A DNA stretch of 64,000 nt from Nitrospirota bacterium (GTDB taxonomy: Bacteria; Nitrospirota; Nitrospiria; SBBL01; JAADHI01). The DNA lies in assembly GCA_029261155.1 (NCBI GenBank), contig JAJDBW010000040.1, positions 1 through 64,000 on the forward strand. Reading direction: 5' to 3'. Below the pieces are notes generated by a model, which was not told where the DNA came from, did not search any database, and worked only from the letters and a program-made list of their open reading frames with translations. Positions 10,297 to 37,479 of this stretch are shown piece by piece. The stretch's first letter is position 1. Every line of letters begins with the position of its first letter. The position numbers were made by a program, and so were the translations under genes.

Positions 10297-10807
10297 GTTT
10301 AATGCACTTAAGCCTCTAATCCATAAACTCCTTTTATATTAATAGCTTAGCTAAAAAAAGCACCCAAAGGTCACGCAATCCCTGGGACACATCCGGCCTC
10401 TTAAATGATCGGATGTCTTTTAAAGTAGACAGGCCGTATCCTGGGTTTTTAATCCCCCCCGAGGAGAAAACCCGAAACCATCTTCCCTTCACACTAATTT
10501 TCTTAAAATCGATCTAAACCCTCTCCGGCGATGAGGTCCAAAATTTTAAGCCAAGGTCGGGATGACGCCATTTGACGACAGCGCCCGGTGTGCCGCTGTC
10601 CGTTTTATCAGAAGGAAAGCTTGTTTTCCTTCATAAAATAGACGGGCTTACTTTTGTAGATCCTGGCTTTAAAATTGCAATCTAAGAGGACTGTACAAGG
10701 TATCTCTGAAAAACCAAAGAGGTTCTCGCGGGCTGATGGGCTGCGACAAGGACCTCGCCCGATCTCGACATCAGATCGTGATTTCAATTAAAACAAGGAG
10801 GTTTTGA
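10297..10807. other. 511-bp intergenic region with several hairpins
   Basis: No coding frame is convincing. Visible inverted repeats are GACACATCCG...CGGATGTC followed by TTTT (about 10385-10420), GACAGCG/CGCTGTC (10577-10583 with 10594-10600) and a perfect GAAGGAAA/TTTCCTTC stem with a 6-nt loop (10611-10632). The first may be a terminator for the barrel gene. The cluster of folds could also be a small RNA or the leader of the gene at 10808, whose AAGGAGG Shine-Dalgarno ends the region. Confidence 0.4.
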
Positions 10808-11104
10808 ATGAAGATCAGAACAAAAATCGGTGTGGCTGCGGTGGCACTCTTACTCTGGACAGGCTTGGCCATGGCCGATGTTCCGGGAAGCATCAGAGGT
10901 GAAGTCACCAAAATAAGCGGTGACATGGTCACCATCAAAACGACCGAAGGAAAAATGCAGTCTTTCCATGTCGACCCCAAAACAACCAAGAAGGAAGGTC
11001 AAGTCAATGTTGGGGCCATGGTGTCTGCAGATGTGAATAACAGCGGACATGCCACCTCGGTAAAAGTCATCCAAGGCAAAGGAATGGAAAAACACAAAGG
11101 ATAG
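10808..11104 (+). CDS. Small periplasmic protein, unknown
   Basis: 98 residues with a typical signal peptide (MKIRTKIGVAAVALLLWTGLAMA|DV). The mature part is a small beta-rich domain: GSIRGEVTKISGDMVTIKT, EGKMQSFHVDP, VGAMVSADVNNSGHATSVKV. This is the OB-like pattern seen in DUF5666-type proteins. It shares the 'xGxVxKxxGxMxxIxT' opening with the larger protein at 50239-50748, which has two such units. A strong AAGGAGG precedes the ATG. Function unknown. Confidence 0.75.
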   Translation: MKIRTKIGVAAVALLLWTGLAMADVPGSIRGEVTKISGDMVTIKTTEGKMQSFHVDPKTTKKEGQVNVGAMVSADVNNSGHATSVKVIQGKGMEKHKG

Positions 11105-11126
11105 CGGCAGGATCTGATTATTCATC

Positions 11127-11168
11127 GGCGGCACAGGGCAGCGGAGGAGATTGATGCCCTGTGCCGCC
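11127..11168 (+). repeat. Perfect 14-bp inverted repeat with SD-like loop
   Basis: GGCGGCACAGGGCA (11127-11140) pairs perfectly with TGCCCTGTGCCGCC (11155-11168). The 14-nt loop contains GGAGGAG, and an ATG starts at 11154 on the edge of the 3' arm. There is no T-run, so this is not a plain terminator. It may protect the upstream message or control translation of the small gene that follows. Confidence 0.6.
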
Positions 11169-11189
11169 CTATCAGAAAGGAGCCCCATC

Positions 11190-11393
11190 ATGATCTTAAA
11201 AGGCTTTTTTAAATTGGCAAGCGATTTTTGGAACGGGACACTAGAAAAGGGGAAAGGCAAGCCGGCGACGCTCGCATTACAGCGTGCAATTGAAGCCGAA
11301 CTCCAGCGCCTCAGATACGAAGATGAGCCCTTGTGCAATAAGATCGCCTATCAAAAATCCTCAAACCACCGCCTATTAAATCGATCAGCTTAG
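11190..11393 (+). CDS. Small hypothetical protein
   Basis: 67 residues from the ATG at 11190, which has an AAAGGAG Shine-Dalgarno 7 nt upstream. An alternative in-frame ATG at 11154 (79 residues) has GGAGG in a hairpin loop. The sequence is basic and helical (ILKGFFKLASDFWNGTLEKGKG, LQRAIEAELQRLRYEDEP), with no signal peptide and no recognised domain. It sits between the small periplasmic protein and the OmpA-like lipoprotein. It could be real, judging by the ribosome-binding site. Confidence 0.5.
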   Translation: MILKGFFKLASDFWNGTLEKGKGKPATLALQRAIEAELQRLRYEDEPLCNKIAYQKSSNHRLLNRSA

Positions 11394-11450
11394 AAAGCTA
11401 ACCGGACCGTGCATCAAACAAGAGGTCAGGGGGAACGCTAAAGGACAACA

Positions 11451-12344
11451 ATGAGGAGCATGACTTTGAAAATGAAAAAAGTAGGAAACGGCGCGTCCGT
11501 ATTAATCATGGTATTTATTTTGATGACGGTTCAAGGCTGCGTGAGCAAAAAGCGCTTTCTTTCGACGCAAAACGAGAAAGAAACCTTATCCGATCAATTA
11601 AAAAGCGAGGGCGAAATAAATGCCCGCTTGCTAAAAGAAAAACGTGAAACCGAGCAGCGCTTGGCGATGGAACAGGAGAAGCGCGTGCAACTGCAACAAG
11701 AAAAGGAGCTCGATAACCAAGCCCTTCAAGCTCAGATGCAGCATTTGGAAAAATCCCTCTCCGAAAAAAATAACAAGCTGTCGGAGTTGGAAACGCGTCT
11801 CGGTAAAACAGCCAACAAGTCCGCACAATTAGAAAATCAACTGGCCCATTCCCAAAAAACCGCCGCGGAGAAAATTCAAGATGCGGAAGAAATGCTTCGG
11901 ACCCAGGAAGAATTGATTGGTAGTCTGAAACAGGAAATAGACGATGGGAACATTAAGATCTCCAAGATGAACGACCGGCTATCCGTCCAGATTGTATCCA
12001 AAATTCTGTTTCCCTCCGGAAGCGACCGCGTCACAGGAGAAGGCGAGGCCGTCTTGAAAAAAGTCAGCAACTCTTTAAAATCGATCAAGCAAAATAAAAT
12101 TCAAATCGAAGGGCACACAGACAACATCCCCATTGGCCCTGTGCTTGCCCAAAAGTTCCCTTCAAACTGGGAGTTATCCACCGCGCGGGCGACGCAGGTG
12201 GTGCGCTTGCTGGCCCGGGAGGAAGTCGATCCCACAAACATGCTCGCAGCAGGGATGGCGGAATTTGCGCCCGTGGCCTCGAACGACACCCCGGAAGGCC
12301 GTCAACAAAACCGCCGGATCGAGATTGTCCTCATTCCGAAATAG
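11451..12344 (+). CDS. OmpA/MotB-domain lipoprotein with coiled coil
   Basis: 297 residues. A signal peptide ends in a lipobox (TVQGC, Cys near residue 30), so the protein is lipid-anchored. Residues 40-180 are a long Glu/Lys/Gln-rich coiled coil. The C-terminal third is an OmpA-like peptidoglycan-binding domain: LFPSGSDRVTGEGEAVLKKV, IEGHTDNIPI, WELSTARATQVVRLL and the final EGRQQNRRIEIVL with the diaminopimelate-binding Asp/Arg pattern. It probably tethers a membrane to the cell wall. Three in-frame ATGs (11451, 11463, 11472) are possible starts; the later two give a more usual signal peptide. Confidence 0.85.
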   Translation: MRSMTLKMKKVGNGASVLIMVFILMTVQGCVSKKRFLSTQNEKETLSDQLKSEGEINARLLKEKRETEQRLAMEQEKRVQLQQEKELDNQALQAQMQHLEKSLSEKNNKLSELETRLGKTANKSAQLENQLAHSQKTAAEKIQDAEEMLRTQEELIGSLKQEIDDGNIKISKMNDRLSVQIVSKILFPSGSDRVTGEGEAVLKKVSNSLKSIKQNKIQIEGHTDNIPIGPVLAQKFPSNWELSTARATQVVRLLAREEVDPTNMLAAGMAEFAPVASNDTPEGRQQNRRIEIVLIPK

Positions 12345-25420: not shown

Positions 25421-25449
25421 TTGACAGATAGACGGGCCTTCGGTATATT
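25421..25449 (+). promoter_or_regulatory. Strong sigma70 promoter of the pil locus
   Basis: TTGACA (25421-25426), exactly 17 nt, then TATATT (25444-25449): 6/6 and 5/6 matches. The expected transcript start, near 25456, falls after the in-frame ATG at 25454 and so supports the ATG at 25475 as the pilB start. Confidence 0.7.
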
Positions 25450-25474
25450 TTTAATGCACCCATCAGGAAGACCC

Positions 25475-27181
25475 ATGCCCCAACCCCAACAAAAAAAGAA
25501 GCGTTTAGGCCAGATGCTCCTCGCGGAAGGCCTCGTGACCGAATTACAACTCGAACGCGCCCTGCGTGAACAAAAGGGTTCCGGAAACCGTTTGGGCAAA
25601 GTGCTCCGCGACTTGGGCTACGTTAACGAAGAAGGTATCATCAAAGTGCTGGGGAAACAAATGAATATTCCCCACATTGCCTTGAATAACATCGTCGTCG
25701 ATCCCGCGGTGGTACACCTCATTCCGGAAATGGTCGCCCGCCGCCATCAAGTGATTCCCCTCTATAAAAAAGGATCGAACCTCACTTTGGCCATGGTCGA
25801 TCCTTTGAACGTATTCGCCATTGACGACATTCAACAAATTACCGGCCTTCAAATCAGCCCGGCGGTGGGGACAGAACGGGAAATCCTCAAGGCCATCGAG
25901 CGCTTCTACAGCGGCACGGGTAATATGGAACAGGCCATACGAGACGCCGATCTGAAGTCGATGGTCGAGGGCGAAGCCTTATCTCCGAAAGAGGCCGAGC
26001 AGGCCGAAGAATCGCCGGTCATCAATTTTGTAAATTCCCTGATTGGGCAGGCCGTAAAAGAAGGCGCCAGTGATGTGCACTTTGAGCCCGACCGCGAAGG
26101 CATTCAGATCCGCTACCGCGTTGACGGCCTGCTCCATGACGTGATGATCGCCCCAAAATCCCTGCAAGCCGGTGTGATTTCCCGCATCAAAATTTTATCG
26201 CAATTGGATATCTCCGAGAAACGCGTGCCCCAAGATGGGCGCTTTGAGATTAAAGTCGGGGAGAAGGACATCGATATCCGTATCTCCACATTGCCAACCG
26301 CTTTTGGCGAAAAAATCGTGATGCGGCTCTTGGATAAAGGCAGTGTCCTCATCGGCCTGGAGGGGCTTGGCTTTAATAGCGAAACGCTTAAAGAATTCGA
26401 TCGCTACTTTCGGAGGCCCTTCGGCCTTATCCTGGTGACAGGAGCCACCGGAAGCGGAAAGACGACCACGCTCTACTCCGTGCTTCAAATGATTAATACG
26501 CCCGAAAAAAATATCGTCACCATTGAAGACCCGGTCGAATACCAACTCAAGCGGATTACCCAAGTTCAGGTGAACGAAAAGGTGGGTGTCAGTTTCGCCA
26601 CGGGACTGCGATCCATTTTGCGCCAAGATCCGGATGTGGTTATGGTTGGAGAAATTCGGGACGGGGAGACCGCAAACCTCGCTATTCAAGCGGCCCTGAC
26701 CGGCCATTTGGTCTTAAGCACCCTCCACACCAACGATGCCCCCGGGGCGGTCGCCCGACTCATCGACATGGGCGCAGAACCCTTTCTTATCGCTTCTTCC
26801 TTAACCGCCGTGGTCTCTCAAAAATTGGTCCGAAAGATCTGTAAGGCCTGCGCCGCACCCGACAACCCACCCCAAGATTTGATCGAACGCCTTGAACTCG
26901 CGCCCCTCTTGGCCAAGAAAAAAGGGACGCTTATGAAAGGCACGGGCTGCGCAGAGTGTCGCGGAAACGGGTATGCCGGACGTATTGGACTCTACGAATT
27001 CTTACCGGTAAACGATGCGATTCGCGCGCTGGTCGTTAGCCGCGCCTCTTCCAGCGAAATCCAAAAAGCCGCACTCAAATCCAGCTATCGGCCCCTTCGG
27101 ACCCAAGGCATCTTCAAAGCCCTTGAAGGCCACACCAGCCTCGAAGAAGTCCTTCGCGTCACCCAAGACATCGAACTCTAA
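25475..27181 (+). CDS. pilB: Type IV pilus assembly ATPase PilB
   Basis: 568 residues from the ATG at 25475 (AGGAAG upstream; see promoter). The hexameric cytoplasmic motor that drives pilus extension. It has an N-terminal MshEN/T2SSE-N domain (RLGQMLLAEGLVTELQLERAL), then the GspE core: Walker A GATGSGKTTT, Asp box IEDPVEYQ, Walker B DVVMVGEIRD and His box LSTLHTNDAPGA. The zinc-binding tetracysteine (CKAC...CAEC) separates PilB/GspE from the retraction ATPase PilT. It is followed by pilC after 212 nt. No pilT is in the window. Confidence 0.95.
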   Translation: MPQPQQKKKRLGQMLLAEGLVTELQLERALREQKGSGNRLGKVLRDLGYVNEEGIIKVLGKQMNIPHIALNNIVVDPAVVHLIPEMVARRHQVIPLYKKGSNLTLAMVDPLNVFAIDDIQQITGLQISPAVGTEREILKAIERFYSGTGNMEQAIRDADLKSMVEGEALSPKEAEQAEESPVINFVNSLIGQAVKEGASDVHFEPDREGIQIRYRVDGLLHDVMIAPKSLQAGVISRIKILSQLDISEKRVPQDGRFEIKVGEKDIDIRISTLPTAFGEKIVMRLLDKGSVLIGLEGLGFNSETLKEFDRYFRRPFGLILVTGATGSGKTTTLYSVLQMINTPEKNIVTIEDPVEYQLKRITQVQVNEKVGVSFATGLRSILRQDPDVVMVGEIRDGETANLAIQAALTGHLVLSTLHTNDAPGAVARLIDMGAEPFLIASSLTAVVSQKLVRKICKACAAPDNPPQDLIERLELAPLLAKKKGTLMKGTGCAECRGNGYAGRIGLYEFLPVNDAIRALVVSRASSSEIQKAALKSSYRPLRTQGIFKALEGHTSLEEVLRVTQDIEL

Positions 27182-27291: not shown

Positions 27292-27393
27292 TTTCCTAAA
27301 CTTAGACCCTTTTTCCGACCCAAACATCTTCATTTTCTCTTGGCATCTATATTGCTCATATCTGTAGAGCGAACTTTTGTAACTGGAACTATC

Positions 27394-28623
27394 ATGCCAA
27401 ATTTCCAATATCGCGCACGAGATAAATCCGGAACCCTTTTCTCAGGCAGCCTCGAAACCCACGGGCGCGACGCCGTCGCATCCTACTTGGACGGCCTGGG
27501 TTATTATCCGGTTTCCATCAAGCAAGAGGGCACCGGATTCAATATCGACTTCGGAAAAAAGTTCAATCAGATTCAACCGATTCAGGCGAAAGACCTTATT
27601 GTGTTCTCCCGACAAATGGCAACATTGGTCGGCGCAGGCGTTCCCATCCTCTCCAGCTTCGATTCGCTAATGGAACAAACAACAAATTACCGACTAAAAC
27701 AGGTTATTCAACGTGTCCGACGAGACATCGAAACCGGAAGTTCTTTTTCTGGAGCCATAGAAAAACATCCTGAAGCCTTTTCCAATCTGTATGTCAGCAT
27801 GGTGCGTGCCGGTGAAACCGGGGGTGTGCTCGACGAAATTCTTTATCGTCTTGCAGCCGTTGCGGAACAAGAAGAAGAAACAAGAAGCCGCATTAAATCG
27901 GCAACCATGCATCCGATGATCATCGTAGGGACACTGATTCTTGCTGCTATCGTTATTCTCACTTGGGTCATCCCCAAGTTTGAGGCCATCTATGCAAAGT
28001 CAACGATAAAACTACCGCTGCCCACGCGTATCTTGATCGGCATTAACACAATTTTCCATAGCTATTGGCCGGTCATGCTACTCCTCGTTGCAGGAAGCAT
28101 TTGGGGCTTGAGACACTATGTCGGAACAAAGGCGGGAAGGCAGGTTTGGGATCGGTTGAAATTGAAAATACCCATATTCGGGCCAATCTTTTTAAAGGTC
28201 GCACTTTCTCGGTTTTCCCGGACTTTCGGAACCCTAATCCGGAGTGGCCTGCCCATGCTCGAAACGCTGGACGTGGTCTCGGGAACCGTGGGCAATGTCG
28301 TGATTTCCGATGTCGTTCTTAGAATTCGCGAAGCAGCTCGGGAGGGTCGCGGTGTGGTTCAACCCATGAAAGAAAGTCTGTTTTTTCCATCTTCCATTAC
28401 GCAAATGGTGGCCATCGGAGAAGAAACAGGTCAAATGGACGAGATGATGACTAAAGTTTCCGAATATTACGACCGAGAAGTCGATCATGCCATTCGGAAC
28501 CTAACCAGCGCCCTAGAACCCGTCTTATTGATCACCATCGGCACCGTGGTGCTCTTTTTTGCGCTGGCCATTTTTATGCCCTGGTGGAACATGATGGAAG
28601 TCTTTAAAGCCGGAGGACCTTAA
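27394..28623 (+). CDS. pilC: Type IV pilus inner-membrane platform protein PilC
   Basis: 409 residues from the ATG at 27394 (MPNFQYRARDKSG, the canonical PilC/GspF beginning). It has two T2SSF domains (about 70-195 and 275-395), each ending in hydrophobic helices (IIVGTLILAAIVILTWVIP; LLITIGTVVLFFALAIFMPW), with the family motif FSRQMATLVGAGVPI and the GLPMLETLDVV repeat. It couples PilB to pilin assembly. It precedes the prepilin genes. Confidence 0.94.
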   Translation: MPNFQYRARDKSGTLFSGSLETHGRDAVASYLDGLGYYPVSIKQEGTGFNIDFGKKFNQIQPIQAKDLIVFSRQMATLVGAGVPILSSFDSLMEQTTNYRLKQVIQRVRRDIETGSSFSGAIEKHPEAFSNLYVSMVRAGETGGVLDEILYRLAAVAEQEEETRSRIKSATMHPMIIVGTLILAAIVILTWVIPKFEAIYAKSTIKLPLPTRILIGINTIFHSYWPVMLLLVAGSIWGLRHYVGTKAGRQVWDRLKLKIPIFGPIFLKVALSRFSRTFGTLIRSGLPMLETLDVVSGTVGNVVISDVVLRIREAAREGRGVVQPMKESLFFPSSITQMVAIGEETGQMDEMMTKVSEYYDREVDHAIRNLTSALEPVLLITIGTVVLFFALAIFMPWWNMMEVFKAGGP

Positions 28624-28684
28624 TGTTTCGATTTCAAGTGGCTCGACCGAAGACAAAACACACAAGGATGTGGAGGATAGAGCA

Positions 28685-29212
28685 ATGCGAATGAATTCAA
28701 AAGGCTATACCTTAATTGAGTTGATTACCGTCATGGTCATCATGGGCGTTTTGACCGGCCTTGCGGTCAACCGCTACCACGACCTAACTCAAGACGCGAA
28801 TATCTCCGCCACCAAAGGCAACTTGGGCACGATGCGGGCAGGAATCACCTTGATTCATGCAAAGGCCCTGATTACGGGCATCAGCGCCTCCAATCCGGAA
28901 TGGCCAAGCGTATCGGAGCTGAACAACAATAGCCTTGATGCCTCGCGGCCCGCAGCATTGGCAAACCTTAAATTAATAGAAGGGCCCTCTGGCGGCGTTT
29001 GCGCTTCCGCCTGCATGCCCGAAAGTATGGTTTCAAATCTAGCCAGTCTAGCAGCACGTAAGACCATCGTCGCGGCCACCACGGCCCAAGCCGACGCCCG
29101 TATTCCTCCGGGAGGACCGGGCGCATGGGCCTACGACCCTGCAACCGGTCAACTCTATCCAAATCAAGCAACACCCAACGATAGTCGAGGCATCCCTGCC
29201 AATCAATGGTAG
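28685..29212 (+). CDS. Type IV prepilin-like protein
   Basis: 175 residues from the ATG at 28685 (GGAGG 8 nt upstream). The leader cleavage site is SKG|YTLIEL, with Tyr instead of Phe at +1 and Glu at +5, followed by the hydrophobic N-terminal helix (ITVMVIMGVLTGLAV). The globular part has a Cys pair (CASAC) and a Pro/Gly-rich end. It is one of two major-pilin-like genes; which forms the fibre is unknown. Confidence 0.85.
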   Translation: MRMNSKGYTLIELITVMVIMGVLTGLAVNRYHDLTQDANISATKGNLGTMRAGITLIHAKALITGISASNPEWPSVSELNNNSLDASRPAALANLKLIEGPSGGVCASACMPESMVSNLASLAARKTIVAATTAQADARIPPGGPGAWAYDPATGQLYPNQATPNDSRGIPANQW

Positions 29213-29254: not shown

Positions 29255-29731
29255 ATGAAAGCATTTCACAAGGCACTTCGAAACCAGAAAGGCTTTACCT
29301 TAATCGAGTTGGTCATCATGATTGTCATCGTTGGCCTCCTCTCGGTCGTGGCCATCCCCACATTCGTGGATATGCAAACAGATGCACAAGCCGGGGCGAA
29401 TGTGGCCTGGGTCGGCGGACTGAGAAGCTGTTTGGCGATCAATTTTGCCGGTGAACGTCTTGGAAAAAGCCCGACACCTAGCGCAACGACGATCGCTGGA
29501 CCAGCGCTCCCAGCCAATGGAGATACGGTAACGGAGATCAATGGCTGCATCTCGGGCTCATCGATGCCCGCTTCCTTGACCGCCCCCGGTGCTGGCGTCA
29601 CCTGGACTGGCGTCGCACCTTTGATTGCCGGCGGAACACCGACAAGTGTCACCTGGACCTTGGCTGCAGGAACGACAGTAGGTGACCCAAGTAACATCTC
29701 TTGCAGCACCCCGGCGACCCACAACTGCTAG
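29255..29731 (+). CDS. Type IV major pilin candidate (PilA/GspG-like)
   Basis: 158 residues. It has a short basic leader, cleavage at QKG|FTLIELV with Glu+5, and a long hydrophobic helix (IMIVIVGLLSVVAIPTFVDM). The small, Gly/Thr/Ala-rich head has four Cys (RSCLA, NGCISG, NISC, HNC), giving two possible disulphides including a C-terminal loop. A strong AAAAGGAG precedes the ATG. Size, leader and position directly before the minor pilins make it the better major-pilin candidate. Confidence 0.85.
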   Translation: MKAFHKALRNQKGFTLIELVIMIVIVGLLSVVAIPTFVDMQTDAQAGANVAWVGGLRSCLAINFAGERLGKSPTPSATTIAGPALPANGDTVTEINGCISGSSMPASLTAPGAGVTWTGVAPLIAGGTPTSVTWTLAAGTTVGDPSNISCSTPATHNC

Positions 29732-29734
29732 CCG

Positions 29735-30244
29735 ATGAGGCCGGAATGCCGGCGTGGCTTTACGCTGATCGAGGTTGTGATTACGCTGATTGTCACGGCC
29801 GTATTGACGATATCGGCTTTTTCCATGATCGACCTCAGTGGCTCGCGGGCCAGCGCAGCCGCCCATAAATTGGCGGCGGACCTGCGCTATGCACAGCGTT
29901 TAGCCAATACCAGTCGGGTTCGCCACGGGGTTGAGGTGACGAATGCCACCAGCTACCGCGTTTTTCGGGATGATGGAGGCGGCGGAACCACGGTCTCAAA
30001 CCCGATGACCGGTTCCCCCTTCGTTGTCGTCATGGGTGCCGATTTTATCGGAGTGTCGCTGACAACGACCCTAGGCGGTGCGCCGCCGAAGGCCCAGTTT
30101 GATTCCATCGGGCGCCCCTTCGAAGGCAGCGTAGCACCAGTGCCCATTGTTTCAGGTGCAAATGTAATCAACCTGCTGGCTTCGGGCACGCCAGCGGAGA
30201 TCGTCACGGTCGAACCCAACACGGGTCTCATAAGGATCAATTAA
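29735..30244 (+). CDS. Minor prepilin, FimT/GspH type
   Basis: 169 residues. Leader RRG|FTLIEVV with Glu+5; the helix is followed by a GspH-like head (LAADLRYAQRLANTSRVRHGVEVTNATSYRVF). It is the first of four prepilin genes in H-I-J-K order, the standard order of minor pilins that prime assembly and sit at the pilus tip. It starts 3 nt after the preceding stop. Confidence 0.85.
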   Translation: MRPECRRGFTLIEVVITLIVTAVLTISAFSMIDLSGSRASAAAHKLAADLRYAQRLANTSRVRHGVEVTNATSYRVFRDDGGGGTTVSNPMTGSPFVVVMGADFIGVSLTTTLGGAPPKAQFDSIGRPFEGSVAPVPIVSGANVINLLASGTPAEIVTVEPNTGLIRIN

Positions 30245-30805
30245 GTGAATAAGACGAAAGGAAGTATGTCGCATCCGCGCAATTTCAAATTGCAAGGCGG
30301 TTTTACCTTGATCGAGGTCATTCTGGTCATCGTGGTCCTTTCCATTGGGCTCACCGGCCTCCTCGTTTATGTCAGCCAAGCCGCGCAAGATAGCGCTTAT
30401 GCCCACAATATCTCCACGGCCACGACCTTGGCCCAAGACCTGATGGAGGAAATCCGTTCGAAGTGTTGGGACGAAACCGCCACAGCAACGGCGGTTTGTT
30501 CAGGTGCAGTCACTGCCTCCGCGATCGGCGCGGACGGCGGCGAGGGCCGCGCGGCCTACGACGACGTGGACGACTTCAACAGTCTGCCCGTTGCTGGAAA
30601 CACGCCGCCTCAGGATTCACAAGGCCTCGCAATGGCGGCTTTTCCCTACTTCACCCAAAGCGCCTCAGTGTGTTACGTGGCTTCTACGGCTCTGGACACC
30701 TGCATCGCAGGTCCGACGGACTATAAGCGGGCATCGGTAACGATTTCTTGGTCCGCCGCCGATCAAGTCAATGTCGTCAATGTGTTTTCTAATCATGAGA
30801 TGTAA
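30245..30805 (+). CDS. Minor prepilin, PilV/GspI type
   Basis: 186 residues from a GTG that directly follows the previous stop (AAGGA 6-8 nt upstream). An ATG at 30266 is less well spaced from its SD. The leader ends QGG|FTLIEV, Glu+5, with IVVLSIGLTGLLVYVSQAAQ as the helix; the 'LAQDLMEEIRSKCWDE' segment is typical of PilV/GspI. It carries several Cys and an acidic head. Confidence 0.85.
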   Translation: MNKTKGSMSHPRNFKLQGGFTLIEVILVIVVLSIGLTGLLVYVSQAAQDSAYAHNISTATTLAQDLMEEIRSKCWDETATATAVCSGAVTASAIGADGGEGRAAYDDVDDFNSLPVAGNTPPQDSQGLAMAAFPYFTQSASVCYVASTALDTCIAGPTDYKRASVTISWSAADQVNVVNVFSNHEM

Positions 30806-30808
30806 GCG

Positions 30809-31348
30809 ATGAAGGTCATAAAGAACGAAGCAGGATATTCTCTCATCGAAGCGATCATCGTTATCGTCATCTTAGGCGTTCTCGGTGTGATCGTGGCCAC
30901 GCCCTTGATCGAAACCGGCATCGGCTGGCAGCAAGTCAGCAGCCGAAAAAATGTGATGCAGCTGGCCCGCCTGGGGATGGACAAGATGGTCAGGGAACTT
31001 CGGAACATGCAAAAGGTGGCCGGAAACAGTCCGAACCTCTCCATTAATTCGACGGCGAATTGCATCAGTTTTACGACGGTGGAAAACCAGAACCTCACTT
31101 TCAATTTAAATGGAACGGTTCTGGAAGAATGCAGTGCTTGCGACTGCGGTGCGATTGTGGCCCCCGACAACTTAGCGGTGAATGTCTCGAACTTTACCGT
31201 GAGCTGTTACGACGCGGCCAATACCGCCGTCGCCTGCAACACCGTGACAACGGTACGAAGAGTATTACTGCAACTTTCAGTGAGCGAGAACGGTGAATCG
31301 GCAAACCTCGATTCGGAAGTCAGCCTTAGAAACTTGCTGGGCGTCTAA
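30809..31348 (+). CDS. Minor prepilin, PilW/GspJ type
   Basis: 179 residues. Leader EAG|YSLIEAI with Glu+5 and Tyr+1; the helix IVIVILGVLGVIVATPLI and the following GMDKMVRELRNMQ fit PilW/GspJ. Its TGA/TAA region overlaps the next gene (TAATG), indicating translational coupling to the propeller-bearing pilin, with which it should form a tip complex. Confidence 0.83.
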   Translation: MKVIKNEAGYSLIEAIIVIVILGVLGVIVATPLIETGIGWQQVSSRKNVMQLARLGMDKMVRELRNMQKVAGNSPNLSINSTANCISFTTVENQNLTFNLNGTVLEECSACDCGAIVAPDNLAVNVSNFTVSCYDAANTAVACNTVTTVRRVLLQLSVSENGESANLDSEVSLRNLLGV

Positions 31349-33105
31349 TGTCGGTTCTATCCGATGAGCGAGGGGTCTCGATTGTTGCGGTGATTCTCAT
31401 GATGCTCCTCATTTCGGTGATGGGGCAGGTTTTGGTATCGATGGTGATTACAGAAAATAGGAGTGCGCCAAAACAAATGCAAGTAACACAAGCGCAATTT
31501 ATCGCGGAAACGGGGATTGATCGGGCCCTACGTTACCTTCTGAAGCGGGAGGACGGAACCTGCACAATCTGTACCTGTGCGTCCATCAACGGCCATGCGG
31601 CGATGACGAACATTCCATCGGGTGCAGGCACTTTTACGGTGACCACAGCATTGGACGCGCCCGCGATCCCGACCACAATTACGGGCGGCTTAAACAATAC
31701 CGACATCACCTCGAACATTCCCGTGCTTGCCTTGGGGGGCTATGGTCCCTATGGGCGCATTATGATCGATCGCGAAATGATCGATTGCCAAAACCTGAGC
31801 GTCAACCCCTTTTCAAACTGCCGCCGTGGAATCGATCTCACGCAGACCTCAACCCACGCTGGACCCGCCGTAGCCACGCGTGTCGCCCAAAATCAATGCC
31901 GGATCACCTCCGCGGGCACGGTCCCTTCCGAGACCCTGCCCGCGGAAAGGGTGATTACGGCAGCCGTCTCCCTGCAAGCGGGTTGGGCGGTGGGTGACGA
32001 CGGCGGGGGCGCGGGCCCCTGCCCAAACAATAATGGCCGGATCGTGCATTGGAACGGCAGCAATTGGACCTGTCAAAACTCCCCGGCCAACCAGAACCTG
32101 AGGGGCGTCTCGATGCTCTCCTATGCGGACGGCTTTGCCGTGGGGGAAGATGGCGGCGGAGGACCGGGTGCTTGCCCAAGCCCAAATAATGCGCGAATAG
32201 CCCGCTGGGACGGGGTCGCTTGGAATCTGCAATGCTCCCCCTCCAATCAAATTCTAAATTCGGTGTCCATGATTTCCTCTCAAGACGGCTTTGCAGTTGG
32301 CGATGAGGGCAACGGCGGCGGCGGAGCCTGCACCAATAACCGAGCACGTATCGTCCAATGGAACGGCGCGACCTGGAATTGCCTCGCCTCCCCTGCCAAC
32401 CAAAACCTCAATGGGGTTTCGATGCTGGATACCGACAATGACGGCATTGCGGAAGACGGCTTTGCCGTGGGAGATAATGGCGGTGGCGGCGGAAATCCTT
32501 GCCCAAATAACAACGGCCGAATTATCCGATGGAACGTCCCCGTGCCGGGGGCATGGACCTGCCTGCTTTCTCCATCCAACCAAGACCTCAACGGTGTAGA
32601 CATGGTCTCGATCAACGACGGCTTTGCCGTGGGAGATCGTGGCGGTGGCGGTGGCGGCGCCTGTACAAATGGTCGGGCGCGTCTGCTCCGGTGGAATGGC
32701 GCGGCCTGGAATTGCGTGGCTTCCCCCGCGACATTTTTTTTCACCCGGAATTTAAATGCGGTTTCGATGCTCGATACGGATGGGGATGGTTTTGCAGAGG
32801 ATGGATGGGCCATCGGCGACCGCTTATTTAACGCCACTTTCGGTTGGTACTTCGTCCGTTGGGATGGAGCCGCCTGGAATTGGATTTTCACCAATACGCC
32901 CGGAATAAACGCAGATAATCTTAGAGGCATTCACATGCTCTCCCCCACCGACGGCTGGGCCGTCGGCGACAACGGCGTTATTCTCCATTGGGACGGCCTC
33001 AACTGGAACGTCGATCCGCAATCCCAAAACGTCAACGAAAATTTAAGAAGCGTCTATGTGGTTTCGCCCAATAAGCCGGTTACCGACTGGCGGGAGAATT
33101 TTTAG
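31348..33105 (+). CDS. PilX/GspK-type minor pilin fused to a beta-propeller
   Basis: 585 residues. The N-terminus is a PilX/GspK prepilin: DERG|VSIVAVILMMLLISVMGQVL. It lacks Glu+5, a feature of the K-type subunit that caps pseudopili. Residues 40-210 are a Cys-containing linker domain. Residues 212-575 consist of seven repeats with the core DGFAVGDxGGGG...C..N.GRIxxWNG..W.C, each about 40-60 residues, as expected for a seven-bladed propeller. Repeats 3 and 5 end in DTDNDG and DTDGDG loops (from 361 and 476) resembling EF-hand calcium sites. Inferred role: pilus-tip adhesin in place of PilY1. Confidence 0.82.
   Translation: MSVLSDERGVSIVAVILMMLLISVMGQVLVSMVITENRSAPKQMQVTQAQFIAETGIDRALRYLLKREDGTCTICTCASINGHAAMTNIPSGAGTFTVTTALDAPAIPTTITGGLNNTDITSNIPVLALGGYGPYGRIMIDREMIDCQNLSVNPFSNCRRGIDLTQTSTHAGPAVATRVAQNQCRITSAGTVPSETLPAERVITAAVSLQAGWAVGDDGGGAGPCPNNNGRIVHWNGSNWTCQNSPANQNLRGVSMLSYADGFAVGEDGGGGPGACPSPNNARIARWDGVAWNLQCSPSNQILNSVSMISSQDGFAVGDEGNGGGGACTNNRARIVQWNGATWNCLASPANQNLNGVSMLDTDNDGIAEDGFAVGDNGGGGGNPCPNNNGRIIRWNVPVPGAWTCLLSPSNQDLNGVDMVSINDGFAVGDRGGGGGGACTNGRARLLRWNGAAWNCVASPATFFFTRNLNAVSMLDTDGDGFAEDGWAIGDRLFNATFGWYFVRWDGAAWNWIFTNTPGINADNLRGIHMLSPTDGWAVGDNGVILHWDGLNWNVDPQSQNVNENLRSVYVVSPNKPVTDWRENF
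31981..33087 (+). repeat. Seven in-frame propeller-blade repeats
   Basis: Blade starts, by the (D)G-F/W-A-V/I-G-D/E motif, are at 31981, 32128, 32284, 32455, 32617, 32800 and 32950. Repeats 1-5 keep a Gly-rich loop and a Cys pair flanking RIxxWNG. Repeats 6 and 7 lose the Gly loop and the cysteines. DNA identity between copies is visible but patchy, so these are old protein repeats rather than recent tandem duplications. Confidence 0.8.
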
Positions 33106-33174: not shown

Positions 33175-33417
33175 ATGACGACATCGGACATCATCGACAA
33201 AGTCAAAATCCCGAGGCACAAACTCTACTATTTAGAACAAAAGGGCTATATCACGCCGAAAAGAATCCCAATGGGCGACTTGGAAGTACGAGAATTTGAC
33301 GATCAAGACCTGCTGAAAGTCGGCCTCATCTGGAAGTATCTTCAAAAAGGCTTTAAACACAAGGTGGCCTACGAAAAGGCCTTAAAAGAACTCCAACAAA
33401 ACGGCCATGGAGGCTAA
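33175..33417 (+). CDS. MerR-like HTH protein in the pil locus
   Basis: 80 residues with AAAGGAAG upstream of the ATG. The sequence reads as a lone MerR-type winged helix: IPRHKLYYLEQKGYITPKR, then a VREFDDQDLLKVGLIWKYLQKGF helix pair and a short tail. It has no effector domain. It lies 2 nt before pilM, and its last codons contain the pilM Shine-Dalgarno (GGAGG, 33409-33413), so the two are translationally coupled. A DNA-binding regulator of the pil genes is the simplest inference. Confidence 0.7.
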   Translation: MTTSDIIDKVKIPRHKLYYLEQKGYITPKRIPMGDLEVREFDDQDLLKVGLIWKYLQKGFKHKVAYEKALKELQQNGHGG

Positions 33418-33419
33418 GC

Positions 33420-34433
33420 GTGTTTTTCGGAAATAGAAAACCGTTTTGGGGTATTGATATTGGCTCAGGCTCTTTAAAAGGCGTTCGCCTGCACCGGAAG
33501 GGGAAGGGCTTTGAGCTCGTCGATGCGGCGATTTTTGAGTTCAACGACGAAAATATGCCCTTGAACGAATGCATCTCGGCCTTGCTCGGAAAAAATCTAC
33601 ACAAAGTGAGGGCCGCCATCCATTTTTCTGGGAGAGTGTCACCGGAAGTACAGACCTTGACGCTACCGGTCATGCCGAAAAAAGAATTAATCGAAGCCGT
33701 CCACTGGGAAGCCAGAAAATGGAGCACCTTGCCTCCGGAAGAAATGGTGGTCGATTTTACAATTATGGCCGAGCAAGAGGAAGAGGGCGTGAAGCAGTAC
33801 GAAATTGTGGTTGTGGTCGTGGAGCGGGCAGCCCTGGAAGAACAACTTCAGGCCATCAGCGCCTCGGGACTCAACATTACCGCCGTCGATCTCGCGCCCA
33901 TGGCATTACTCAATACGGCGCGACTTTATTATGAAGATGCGCTCCCCGAAAGTCTGCTCTATGTCGACATGGGGGCCCAAAAAATGGAGATCAACATCGT
34001 GAAGAACGGGGTCATCCGTTTCACGCGCCAAGTGGCCTTAGGCGGCGATGTCATTACCCATGCGATATCGCGAAGCTCTACTTTATCTTTGCCCGAGGCA
34101 GAGGGAAGAAAACGGAAAGAGGGCATCCCTCTAGATGGCCTCTCCCGCAGCGCCATGCTGGAACAAGTGGACCGCTTTATTGTCGAGATTCAACGCTCCG
34201 TCGATTACTACCGGGCCCAATCCCGAGAGAGCGGCATCGATAAAATACTGCTCATGGGCGGCACACCCATGCTCGGGGGATTCTTAGAATATTTCAAAGG
34301 ATTTTTCGATGCAACGGTTGAACTCGACGACTCCTTTTCGAAAACGCCCTGCGACGATCCGGGAATCTCAATGCTTTTGGAGATGTCGCCGCGCTTCTCC
34401 ATGGCCGTCGGCTTGGCCTTAAGGAAGGGTTAA
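33420..34433 (+). CDS. pilM: Type IV pilus alignment protein PilM
   Basis: 337 residues from a GTG. An actin/FtsA-like cytoplasmic ATPase: WGIDIGSGSLKGVRL (phosphate 1), VDMGAQKMEINIV (phosphate 2) and ILLMGGTPMLGGFLEYF (adenosine motif). It binds the PilN N-terminus and links the motor to the periplasmic alignment complex. TAATG overlap with pilN. Confidence 0.92.
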   Translation: MFFGNRKPFWGIDIGSGSLKGVRLHRKGKGFELVDAAIFEFNDENMPLNECISALLGKNLHKVRAAIHFSGRVSPEVQTLTLPVMPKKELIEAVHWEARKWSTLPPEEMVVDFTIMAEQEEEGVKQYEIVVVVVERAALEEQLQAISASGLNITAVDLAPMALLNTARLYYEDALPESLLYVDMGAQKMEINIVKNGVIRFTRQVALGGDVITHAISRSSTLSLPEAEGRKRKEGIPLDGLSRSAMLEQVDRFIVEIQRSVDYYRAQSRESGIDKILLMGGTPMLGGFLEYFKGFFDATVELDDSFSKTPCDDPGISMLLEMSPRFSMAVGLALRKG

Positions 34434-35020
34434 TGCATTTTCAACAAATCAATTTACTGGAGGCGATGACCCTTGGGGACAAGGACCACTTTGCCCTTCA
34501 AACCCACTGGATCGCTTGGGCGCTTGCCGGTTTAATTTTATTGACTGGTCTCGGCGTCTACAAGAAAGGAAGTGAGATCACCGTCCTCCACAACGATATC
34601 GCCGGTCTCCAAAGGAAAAAAGTTTTTTTAACGGAAGAGATGGGCGCAGCCGAAGCCGCCATGAAAGATGTTGTTCAAATCCTGGCCCTCACCTTGTCGA
34701 AGCGCATTCATTGGTCAAATTTAATGCGCGAAGTCAGCTTGCTTATTCCAGAAGGCGTCTGGATTACACGTTGGGAATCGTTCTTGCCGCAATTGGAAAA
34801 AGGCAAGCCCGCGCCGCAAGGCAAACCAAAACTTCAAGAAGGCCAACCTCAGGTTAAGTTCGCTGGCGAGGCCCTTTCCCAAGAACGCTTAACCCGATTT
34901 TTATCGGGGCTTGAGAACTCTCCCTTAATTTTAAACACGCGGCTCGTCCACGCGCGGCAAATTAAAGACGAGGTCCATTTCGAAATGGTGGTGACTCTAA
35001 AGACGGAGCAAGCATCGTGA
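34433..35020 (+). CDS. pilN: Type IV pilus alignment protein PilN
   Basis: 195 residues. A short cytoplasmic N-terminus with the PilM-binding INLLEA motif is followed by one TM helix (WIAWALAGLILLTGLGVY), a coiled coil and a ferredoxin-like periplasmic domain (LMREVSLLIPEGVWITRWE). Overlaps pilO by 4 nt. Confidence 0.88.
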   Translation: MHFQQINLLEAMTLGDKDHFALQTHWIAWALAGLILLTGLGVYKKGSEITVLHNDIAGLQRKKVFLTEEMGAAEAAMKDVVQILALTLSKRIHWSNLMREVSLLIPEGVWITRWESFLPQLEKGKPAPQGKPKLQEGQPQVKFAGEALSQERLTRFLSGLENSPLILNTRLVHARQIKDEVHFEMVVTLKTEQAS

Positions 35021-35511
35021 GGACGCTCATCGCCCGCCATAAAATCGTCCTCGTCTTATTCGCGCTGTGGCTCTTTGTCGCTTATGTTTTTTTCCTTCGC
35101 CTTGAAGAAAAGCAAGGCCTGGTTGGGCAAGTGACTTTACTCCAGCAGGAAATCGCCGTCTTGCCGCAGCCTGCCGCTGATCGCAGAATGAAGGACATGG
35201 GAGAGACCTTTTCTTGGATCGATTCCATGCCCGACTTTTTAATGGACCTGACGAAATGGGCAAAAAAACGTTCGATTGTTATCGTGACGATCGAACCGGA
35301 AAAAACGGACTATAAGGAAGGCTATATCGAACAGCCGGTAAAACTCGAACTGCAAGGGCGCTTCCGGACCATTGGGGAGTATCTGACTTTTCTCGAGGAT
35401 CTGCCGAGACCGGTACAGGTGACGGGTCTACAGATCACAAGCCCCGAAACCGTGGCGCCGGATATTCTGGCACGCCTAAATCTTGTGGTCTACATTAGGG
35501 ATGCGACATGA
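35017..35511 (+). CDS. pilO: Type IV pilus alignment protein PilO
   Basis: 164 residues from a GTG. One N-terminal TM (KIVLVLFALWLFVAYVFFL), a coiled coil and a ferredoxin-like fold with the family pattern FLMDLTKWAKKRSIVIVTIEP and GRFRTIGEYLTFLEDLPRPVQV. It pairs with PilN. Overlaps pilP by 4 nt (ATGA). Confidence 0.88.
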   Translation: MRTLIARHKIVLVLFALWLFVAYVFFLRLEEKQGLVGQVTLLQQEIAVLPQPAADRRMKDMGETFSWIDSMPDFLMDLTKWAKKRSIVIVTIEPEKTDYKEGYIEQPVKLELQGRFRTIGEYLTFLEDLPRPVQVTGLQITSPETVAPDILARLNLVVYIRDAT

Positions 35512-35921
35512 GCCTCATACGGCACAGGGGCCTGGTCGTCGCTCTCGTTTTCGCGGGCCTACTCTGCCTAAGACCTCCGGCACGTTCAAATCCTTTACAA
35601 GTTTCGGGTTTAAACACTCCCGCAACAGTGGAAGAGACAAAGGGCTGGGGGCGCGATCCGTTTTATAGAAAGCGGGTAAAGAAATCGCTAGAAACGGTCG
35701 CCCCCTTCGTCGAAAAAAGACAAGAAGATTTTGATCTATTTCTCTCCGCCATCATTTTTCGAGAGGGAATCGGCGTGGCCATTATTGACGGAAAGATTGT
35801 CCGTCTGGGCGATTCCGTCGGCAAGGGCTATGTTGTGAGCCATATTTTGAACGACAAAGTACTTCTCCTAAAAGGGGATCGAGTGAAGATGCTTCAGGTT
35901 CAACCTTTTAGAGGCAAGTAA
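35508..35921 (+). CDS. pilP: Pilus assembly protein PilP
   Basis: 137 residues. Signal sequence, then a GWGRDPFYRKR segment and an HR-like beta domain (LSAIIFREGIGVAIIDGKIVRLGDSVGKGYVVSHI...VLLLKGDRVKMLQ), matching PilP. It links PilNO to the secretin. The only Cys in the signal (LLCLRPPARS) is in a poor lipobox context, so lipidation is uncertain. Confidence 0.82.
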   Translation: MSLIRHRGLVVALVFAGLLCLRPPARSNPLQVSGLNTPATVEETKGWGRDPFYRKRVKKSLETVAPFVEKRQEDFDLFLSAIIFREGIGVAIIDGKIVRLGDSVGKGYVVSHILNDKVLLLKGDRVKMLQVQPFRGK

Positions 35922-35931
35922 GGAGGGCTGC

Positions 35932-37479
35932 ATGAAAAACATTTGGGGAATCATCTTCCTCTTCCTTTTAACGGCAAGCTATTCCCTGGTTGATCCAGTG
36001 AGAGGTAATTCCGAATCGCCTCTAGACGACTTGCTGCCCGATGTGATTTTGTCGGATCCTGAAGCCCTGAGCGTTGAACGCTTGAGGGATGCCCAGTTAC
36101 CGCTCTCCACTTTGGACATGCCTGAAACGGATACGAAACCCGCCAAAGAAAACGGCGGATTCATTTCTTTAAGAAAACAAGACGAGCTGTTTTACTTGGA
36201 ACTTCGCGATGCGGAGATCAAAGACGTCTTACGCGCCTTGTCTCAGGAAAACCTCATGAACATTATCATTGGGGAAGGGGTGGAAGGCGAGATCACTTTA
36301 AGCTTTAAAGCGGTACCTTTCGACGAGGCCTTCAATGCCATCCTACAAATGAACAACCTCACCTCTTATCGTGATGGGGGAATCATTCGGGTCATGAAAT
36401 CGCCTTTTTCCCCCGAAGAGGCCGGCTTGGAAACGCAAATGATTGAAATCAATTTTGCGCTCGCCGAAGAGATTCAAAAAACCGTGAAGCCGCTCTTAAG
36501 CACAAACGGTTCGGTGATGGCGGATGTCCGCACCAACACCCTTGTGGTTCGGGATTTTCCATCGAACTTAGTAAAGCTCGTCAAGGTCGTCAAACGGCTC
36601 GACAGTAAAACCCCTCAGGTCATGATCGAAGCCCGGATCGTCGAGGTGAATACCAACTTTTCGAAAGAGCTTGGCGTCCAATGGGGTGGACAACTCGCTT
36701 CTCGCTCCGGCAACACCACCTCAACCATCCACGGCGGTGGATTCAAAAACCTGTCGTCGGATCCTTTTGCCAATTCGCTCACAGGGGGCATTGGCGTTTC
36801 CGGCGGACCCTTTGCCGTCAATCTTCCTGCCGATGTCGGACCCGGTTCGGGTGGGGCCTTCGGCTTTTCGATCGGAAATGTCGCCAATACCCGGCTGCTC
36901 GACGTACAGCTTTCGGCTTTACAGGATTCCGGGAAAGGCAAGATTCTTTCCAATCCGGTCATCATGACCCTCAACAACAAAGAAGCACATATTTCCAGCG
37001 GCACGGAAATCCTCATTCCGACCACCTCGATTCTCACCACCTCCGTCTCCCCGAGCTCCGGCGCTTCCGGAGGAACGGCAAGCACCGGAGTCACGACGAT
37101 CAACGCCAAATTGGAACTAACGGTCACGCCCCACGTCACCCCCGACGGTCAGATCCTTATGCATGTCCATGTCGATAAAAAAGACCCCGACTTCAGCCGC
37201 CAGGTACAAAATATTCCGCCGTTAACGACCCGAACAGCGGAGACCGATCTCTTGGTCAGAGACCGAGAGACCGTCGTCATCGGCGGAATCTACACACACA
37301 ACGAATCAGCAGGTGAGGCCGGCGTACCTTGGCTTTCAAAAATTCCACTCATCGGCTGGCTCTTTAAAAAAGAAACCAAGCTCGACACCCAAAACGAATT
37401 GATGATCTTTATCACTCCAACTATTCGAGGTGAGAACGAATCGCTAAACGAAGATCTGTTCAAAAAAAACCGGAAATAA
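35932..37479 (+). CDS. pilQ: Type IV pilus secretin PilQ
   Basis: 515 residues, short for PilQ because AMIN domains are missing. Signal peptide, then an STN/N0-like domain (FYLELRDAEIKDVLRALSQ, about 85-155), one secretin_N domain (about 165-230) and the secretin core ending GVPWLSKIPLIGWLFKKETK, the diagnostic C-terminal motif. It has Gly/Ser-rich gate segments. AAGGAGG precedes the start. It forms the outer-membrane gated pore for the pilus and is the last gene of the locus. Confidence 0.93.
   Translation: MKNIWGIIFLFLLTASYSLVDPVRGNSESPLDDLLPDVILSDPEALSVERLRDAQLPLSTLDMPETDTKPAKENGGFISLRKQDELFYLELRDAEIKDVLRALSQENLMNIIIGEGVEGEITLSFKAVPFDEAFNAILQMNNLTSYRDGGIIRVMKSPFSPEEAGLETQMIEINFALAEEIQKTVKPLLSTNGSVMADVRTNTLVVRDFPSNLVKLVKVVKRLDSKTPQVMIEARIVEVNTNFSKELGVQWGGQLASRSGNTTSTIHGGGFKNLSSDPFANSLTGGIGVSGGPFAVNLPADVGPGSGGAFGFSIGNVANTRLLDVQLSALQDSGKGKILSNPVIMTLNNKEAHISSGTEILIPTTSILTTSVSPSSGASGGTASTGVTTINAKLELTVTPHVTPDGQILMHVHVDKKDPDFSRQVQNIPPLTTRTAETDLLVRDRETVVIGGIYTHNESAGEAGVPWLSKIPLIGWLFKKETKLDTQNELMIFITPTIRGENESLNEDLFKKNRK

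Follow-up and report, generated by a model that had tools for sequence, protein, structure and literature searches.

PilY1 is generally regarded as the adhesin at the tip of type IV pili in diderm bacteria. In the PilX and PilY1/PilC pair of type IVa pili, a minor pilin that lacks Glu5 is on top, a propeller-bearing effector is present above it, and the C-terminal tail of the effector has been proposed to dock on the pilin (PMC7541494, PMC11046646). Multimer models place PilX directly beneath PilY1, with eight C-terminal residues of PilY1 paired with the PilX sheet (PMC11046646), and this strand-pairing model has been extended to Neisseria (PMC13190605). In S. sanguinis, a neighbour was modelled as stabilising a pilin sheet through strand complementation (PMC9934059). 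The K subunit, which is without Glu5, caps the complex (PMC10191384, PMC9934059).

Pilins that carry additional domains are also known. As many as 264 architectures of modular type IV pilins were found by use of the IPR012902 signature (PMC8179133), and PilB and PilC of S. sanguinis each combine a pilin module for polymerisation with a grafted domain that is not pilus-specific, are predicted to be located at the tip, and belong to a group with a large variety of grafted domains (PMC8179133, PMC9934059). GspK of type II secretion systems takes the K position, lacks Glu5, and has an extra domain in the pilin, which is alpha-helical and lies inside the sheet (PMC8179133).

The protein described here is a K/PilX-type minor pilin fused to a propeller, and it resembles each of these systems in the respects given above. 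Unlike the PilX and PilY1/PilC pair, it is one protein, without a PF05567 match, and it has neither a type I signal peptide nor an adhesive domain at the N-terminus. Compared with S. sanguinis PilB and PilC, which carry Glu5 and the usual pilin signature, it is a probable cap without Glu5 and differs further in having a YCF48-like propeller, in occupying a slot common to other cargos, and in ending in a tail that is also found on separate secreted cargos. Its extra domain is also unlike that of GspK.

A propeller-bearing pilin in the K slot of a pilus operon

The window, which is the whole stretch of 64,000 nucleotides analysed, contains a pilus operon with the order pilB, pilC, five pilin genes, the fusion gene, a MerR-like gene, and pilM to pilQ (Table 1), and the same order is kept across the class. 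The fusion gene stands directly after the H-, I-, and J-type pilin genes, that is, in the K slot, and its ATG overlaps the TAA of the upstream pilin gene (TAATG), so that it is likely to be translationally coupled with that gene. The MshE-type c-di-GMP domain of the pilB product scored over its cut-off and, together with the operon content, is presumably similar to that of the MSHA pilus. The MerR-like protein was found to be 62–78% identical among operon copies, above most of the surrounding pilus proteins. In the congener G001 (99% complete), the fusion was not found and the secretins were only more distant ones, the best having 42% identity (1024-aa frame); hence, the operon looks accessory within the genus. 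From the pattern of kinship, the organism probably belongs to the class Nitrospiria of the Nitrospirota.

Table 1. Coordinates of the pilus operon and of the parts of the fusion protein in the window.
Feature	Positions	Strand	Basis
PilB/MshE-type extension ATPase, c-di-GMP-binding N-domain	25421..27181	+	profile scan
PilC-type platform protein	27340..28623	+	profile scan
Type IV pilin	28670..29212	+	profile scans
Type IV pilin, possibly the major one	29255..29731	+	profile scans
H-type minor pilin	29735..30244	+	profile scans
I/PilV-type minor pilin	30245..30805	+	profile scan
J/PilW-position minor pilin	30809..31348	+	profile scans; operon position
K/PilX-type minor pilin fused to seven-bladed propeller, 585 aa	31348..33105	+	ORF, homology, Pfam, AlphaFold2, repeat cores
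Class III signal peptide MSVLSDERG, predicted to be cut off after Gly9; Ala at mature position 5	31348..31374	+	sequence
Pilin module: alpha-1 helix (8–69), sheet strands 94–102, 183–192, 199–208	31375..31971	+	AlphaFold2; conserved in relatives (alignment)
Small beta-rich domain inserted in pilin module, residues 109–180	31672..31887	+	AlphaFold2, alignment
Seven-bladed YCF48-like propeller; 7 x 4 strands (211–555), closing strand 565–572	31978..33063	+	AlphaFold2, Foldseek, repeats
DTDNDGIAE, calcium-loop-like motif, blade 4; putative metal binding	32428..32454	+	sequence
DTDGDGFAE, calcium-loop-like motif, blade 6; putative metal binding	32773..32799	+	sequence
C-terminal tail VTDWRENF (W581-R-E), proposed donor strand	33079..33102	+	common to fused and split relatives
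Small MerR-like DNA-binding protein	33175..33417	+	kept in most operon copies
pilM, pilN, pilO, pilP, pilQ	33420..37479	+	PilM, PilQ over cut-offs; other three by order and size

The N-terminus of the fusion was read from the sequence as MSVLSDERG followed by VSIVAVILMM, which agrees with the original prediction of a K/PilX-type prepilin start without Glu5. Pfam PilX_N matched it at 21 bits in one scan and at 25.8 bits in the genome scan (cut-off 25.5), and Glu5 was also absent from every homologous prepilin site that could be read. The N_methyl signature (IPR012902), which is the search handle of the published modular-pilin survey and not a structural requirement, did not match the fusion at E up to 1. 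It is very unlikely that the operon builds a short secretion-like pseudopilus with the fusion as a GspK-like cap presenting substrates. The N-terminus did give a weak match to GspK, whose pilin fold likewise contains an extra domain (PMC8179133), but the GspK model (NCBIfam equivalog) reached only 13.4 bits against a cut-off of 130, PilM was over its cut-off, the window secretin matched PilQ at 347 bits (over the cut-off) with GspD under its own, and a type II secretion-like set is present on another contig, C3, separately from the window operon.

The core [FW]A[VI]G[DE] was recovered seven times, at residues 213, 263, 315, 372, 426, 487, and 537, with a spacing of 50–61 residues, so that the seven repeat starts predicted at 31981, 32128, 32284, 32455, 32617, 32800, and 32950 proved exact. 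A chance origin of the repeats was ruled out by shuffling the sequence 20,000 times, which never reached seven cores and gave a maximum of two. A homologue in G021 was aligned with 38% identity across residues 6–583 of the fusion (E 1e-54), indicating that the ORF is a real gene. The pilin and the propeller are thus a single covalent protein, as had been proposed, being encoded by one ORF, which holds the K position in a complete pilus operon.

In the AlphaFold2 model of the fusion (14-row alignment; pLDDT 78, pTM 0.80), the pilin module is followed by seven blades, with four strands in each, and then by a closing strand. The borders of the pilin module, the insert, and the blades were placed by means of the repeats and the list of predicted strands. 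The propeller is therefore predicted to be closed, in line with the earlier expectation. The closest solved structures to the predicted model in a Foldseek search were those of YCF48 (E 1.4e-10, TM 0.65 on target), which has the same seven-bladed fold. Free YCF48-like proteins encoded in the same genome were similar to the fusion propeller (E 4e-7), but without the pilin module and the tail. The role of YCF48 in photosystem II assembly is irrelevant to the fusion and, to our knowledge, YCF48-like propellers are not generally adhesins.

Each of blades 1 to 5 has a pair of Cys residues (225/242, 276/296, 328/345, 385/405, and 439/456), which may form disulfides, and both calcium-loop-like motifs may bind metal, as judged from their sequences. 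The two loops read DxDxDGxxE, with E at the ninth position; they resemble the calcium loop of PilY1, for which the motif is Dx(D/N)xDGxxD (PMC13190605), and this motif is matched exactly in the relative L046. The insert domain of the pilin module is missing from the fusion of G026, and the equivalent part of the relative L056 (about residues 103–171) gave a match to wedge families of the phage baseplate (phrog_2885, E 3e-9). This small domain was found too in large unrelated proteins of the phylum.

PilY1 and the other filament sets of the genome

The original prediction regarded the propeller as that of a possible PilY1 substitute and noted the absence of pilY1. PilY1-type identity of the propeller was rejected because PF05567 did not match the fusion at E up to 1, BLAST found no similarity between the fusion propeller and the PilY1 of the genome, and the best fold was YCF48, with PilY1 not being among the listed fold matches. 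The fusion is also without a type I signal peptide and has the prepilin N-terminus instead. As for the absence of pilY1, it holds for the window and not for the genome, where PF05567 found one gene, of 1344 aa, on contig C58. This gene stands after GspH-, PilV-, PilW-, and PilX-like genes, indicating that a full minor-pilin/PilY1 set exists in the genome; the expectation that no second complete pilX-pilY1 set would be present has thus failed, the set on C58 being a different gene set. The fusion is best read as a modular pilin that caps the tip, and the notion of a PilY1 substitute stands only to that extent, since the genome has its own PilY1 set and the propeller is not PilY1-type. The fusion works like PilX-PilY1, yet it is not PilY1 by the defining domain. 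The organism does have PilY1, which leaves room for the window machine using the fusion instead, and the PilY1 of C58 could in principle serve the window pilus too.

It is normal for a genome to have several tip sets, and M. xanthus has three (PMC7541494). In the present genome, C52 holds pilM to pilQ, and there are two further pilus sets in which the K-position protein or its partner also ends in WRE, that is, C43 (L062), which has a PilX of 415 aa ending in SLSWREGFKPH together with pilB, pilT, and pilC, and C89 (L061), which has a 133-aa pilin and a 281-aa secreted partner ending in QQKWREVD.

Of the remaining genomes that carry the propeller fusion, G021, G026, G030, and G024 (by estimate 96, 95, 82, and 85% complete, respectively) gave no PF05567 match, and G019 and G032 carry both the propeller fusion and PilY1. 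Such absences are provisional, because many of the genomes look like metagenome assemblies. In G019, a PilY1 ending in IFWKETP (L043, 2–2746) is located directly upstream of the operon with a double-propeller fusion, both tip solutions being present at one locus.

Exchange of cargo and its separation from the pilin

The propeller fusion recurs in these six other genomes, and the six propeller rows formed one clade in the tree (support 95/93). The fusion of G019 (829 aa) has about 14 repeats by eye (2 x 7), those of G021 and G026 have 7 each, that of G030 has 4, of which two are nearly identical, so that assembly collapse is possible, and that of G024 has about 7, between which large domains are inserted and the reading frame changes; an automatic count, which used a looser pattern, was one or two off these numbers. 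The fusion of G032 has an assembly gap. The intact copies have repeats in multiples of seven (7 or 14), which argues for closed propellers. The insertions between blades in G024 (L048, 7664–12284) appeared YVTN-like and concanavalin-like by eye, and the frame change may be an assembly error. A search with the fusion over all genome contigs gave one weak match, which was to a propeller-like stretch (24% identity) on a contig labelled Micrarchaeum.

In G002, G004, G006, G013, G014, and G017, the slot has the same pilin module but a different repeat protein behind it (VQTGT...RSFLIFNTRHNSNRP), and in G003 and G028 the module is followed by a third cargo type (GSFTK...ITGVGFxPKAVLF). Pfam gave no convincing match to the cargo in representatives of these exchanged types. 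A relative with the second cargo gave a poor AlphaFold model (pLDDT 56), the fold of which matched the lectin SLL-2 (E 0.08) and the C-terminal domain of PCSK9, and its likeness to lectins is weakly indicated, as a lead only. The cargo behind one pilin module is, judging from the sequences, exchangeable, which is a feature absent from the original prediction, as are the two-gene version and the common tail described below.

In distant relatives, the pilin and the cargo are encoded by two adjacent genes, the cargo being Sec-secreted, as in L107, where a 200-aa pilin is paired with a secreted protein of 646 aa. Repeats of the DUF11/CARDB type and a beta-helix are found among these cargos. G101 (L098) has both arrangements side by side, a split pair and a fused protein. 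The fused protein there (10305–12185) is a K-type pilin with a VWNGSTW-type repeat, perhaps another propeller. The fused and split states need three changes on the tree, and the joining or separation of pilin and cargo has therefore occurred more than once. We take the split pilin and secreted partner of the relatives to resemble mshP-mshQ; a search for MshQ (DUF6701) in 296 genomes of the phylum gave no match, although the control was equally silent.

The exchange of cargo bears on the possibility that the propeller is structural and not adhesive, acting as a large plug to gate the PilQ secretin or to block the retraction of the tip into the envelope while other proteins bind. We regard it as unlikely. 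It would be in keeping with PilY1 as a plug in the secretin region of some species (discussed in PMC13190605), and the calcium-loop-like motifs are reminiscent of the site in PilY1 that is associated with the control of retraction. The complete switching of the cargo type among relatives, with the pilin module being kept, is easier to reconcile with diversified binding to surfaces than with a fixed plug.

The common C-terminal tail and the proposed pilus tip

The fused proteins and the separate secreted cargos end alike in a WRE tail. To evaluate its distribution, slot proteins were picked by position and pilin homology without using the tail as a criterion, by a position rule which was imperfect in that some tip proteins were missed and frame-shifted or contig-cut ones were included. 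W-x-E was present within the last ten residues in 25 of the 35 slot proteins, compared with 7 of 504 other ORFs (Fisher p about 1e-28, inflated by related sequences), so that chance was ruled out as the source of the shared tail. Six of the seven other ORFs were PilY1 or tip-slot proteins missed by the position rule, and one was unrelated. The ten slot proteins without strict W-x-E consisted of four with variants (such as YREEF, YREDF, TREDF, or QREVY) and others that were cut or frame-shifted. Several PilY1s of relatives end in a similar tail, as in GVKGWRDF, LKSWREIFNLG, or IFWKETP, and the domains that bear the tail comprise a beta-helix, DUF11-type repeats, lectin-like repeats, propellers, and some PilY1s. 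The tail was not present in the free YCF48-like propellers of the same genome (L057 and L058), indicating that it is not part of the propeller.

Most likely, the tail is a donor strand, given in trans by the secreted cargos and in cis in the fusions. In the fusion, the closing strand leads straight into the tail near the junction of pilin and propeller, so that the tail could reach the pilin sheet; a terminal strand within it (582–584) was modelled at low confidence (about 51). It is rather doubtful that the tail, instead of docking, serves for sorting, stability, or propeller closure and is shared by common descent of the 3' ends of the genes. Its extreme C-terminal place would suit a sorting tag too, but it is nearly confined to pilus-tip proteins with unrelated cargos, is missing from the free propellers, and corresponds to just the part of PilY1 that published models seat on PilX (PMC11046646).

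Taken together, the fusion is probably a cap with a built-in effector, occupying the K/PilX position in the tip-initiation complex of an MSHA-like type IV pilus. Prepilin peptidase would cut it after Gly9, and its long N-terminal helix would pack on the H/I/J-type pilins from the genes just upstream. Without Glu5, it would have to be the topmost subunit, and the propeller would thus be displayed at the extreme tip of the pilus, where it probably acts as a ligand-binding effector, the role that PilY1 has in other pili. At the C-terminus, the strand that closes the propeller would be followed by the short WRE tail, which would join the pilin sheet as an added beta-strand, in cis in the fusion and in trans for the split genes. 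Tip location, adhesion, and strand addition are suggested for the fusion by its sequence, by structure prediction, and by analogy with the systems described above.

We also propose, more tentatively and at somewhat less than even probability, that the WRE tail is a portable address tag and that K-type pilins are sockets with an incomplete sheet, which would take the tail as a donor strand. Varied secreted domains could thereby be mounted at the tip, and repeated fusion of cargo and socket would have resulted in a self-complemented tip. If this is true, such a tip would start assembly without a partner.

Within the literature searched, outside which subscription papers and preprints lay, no report was found of a propeller-fused K-type cap, of the exchange of cargo in the slot, or of the WRE tail. 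The arrangement suggests plug-and-socket mounting of interchangeable adhesins on pilus tips. It extends modular pilins to a cap without Glu5, which tends to escape searches with the usual pilin signature. The presence of one pilin carrier with exchangeable cargos, fused or separate, and a common tail represents a natural experiment for docking by strand addition, and the common tail provides a sequence handle to find tip effectors in genomes without PilY1.
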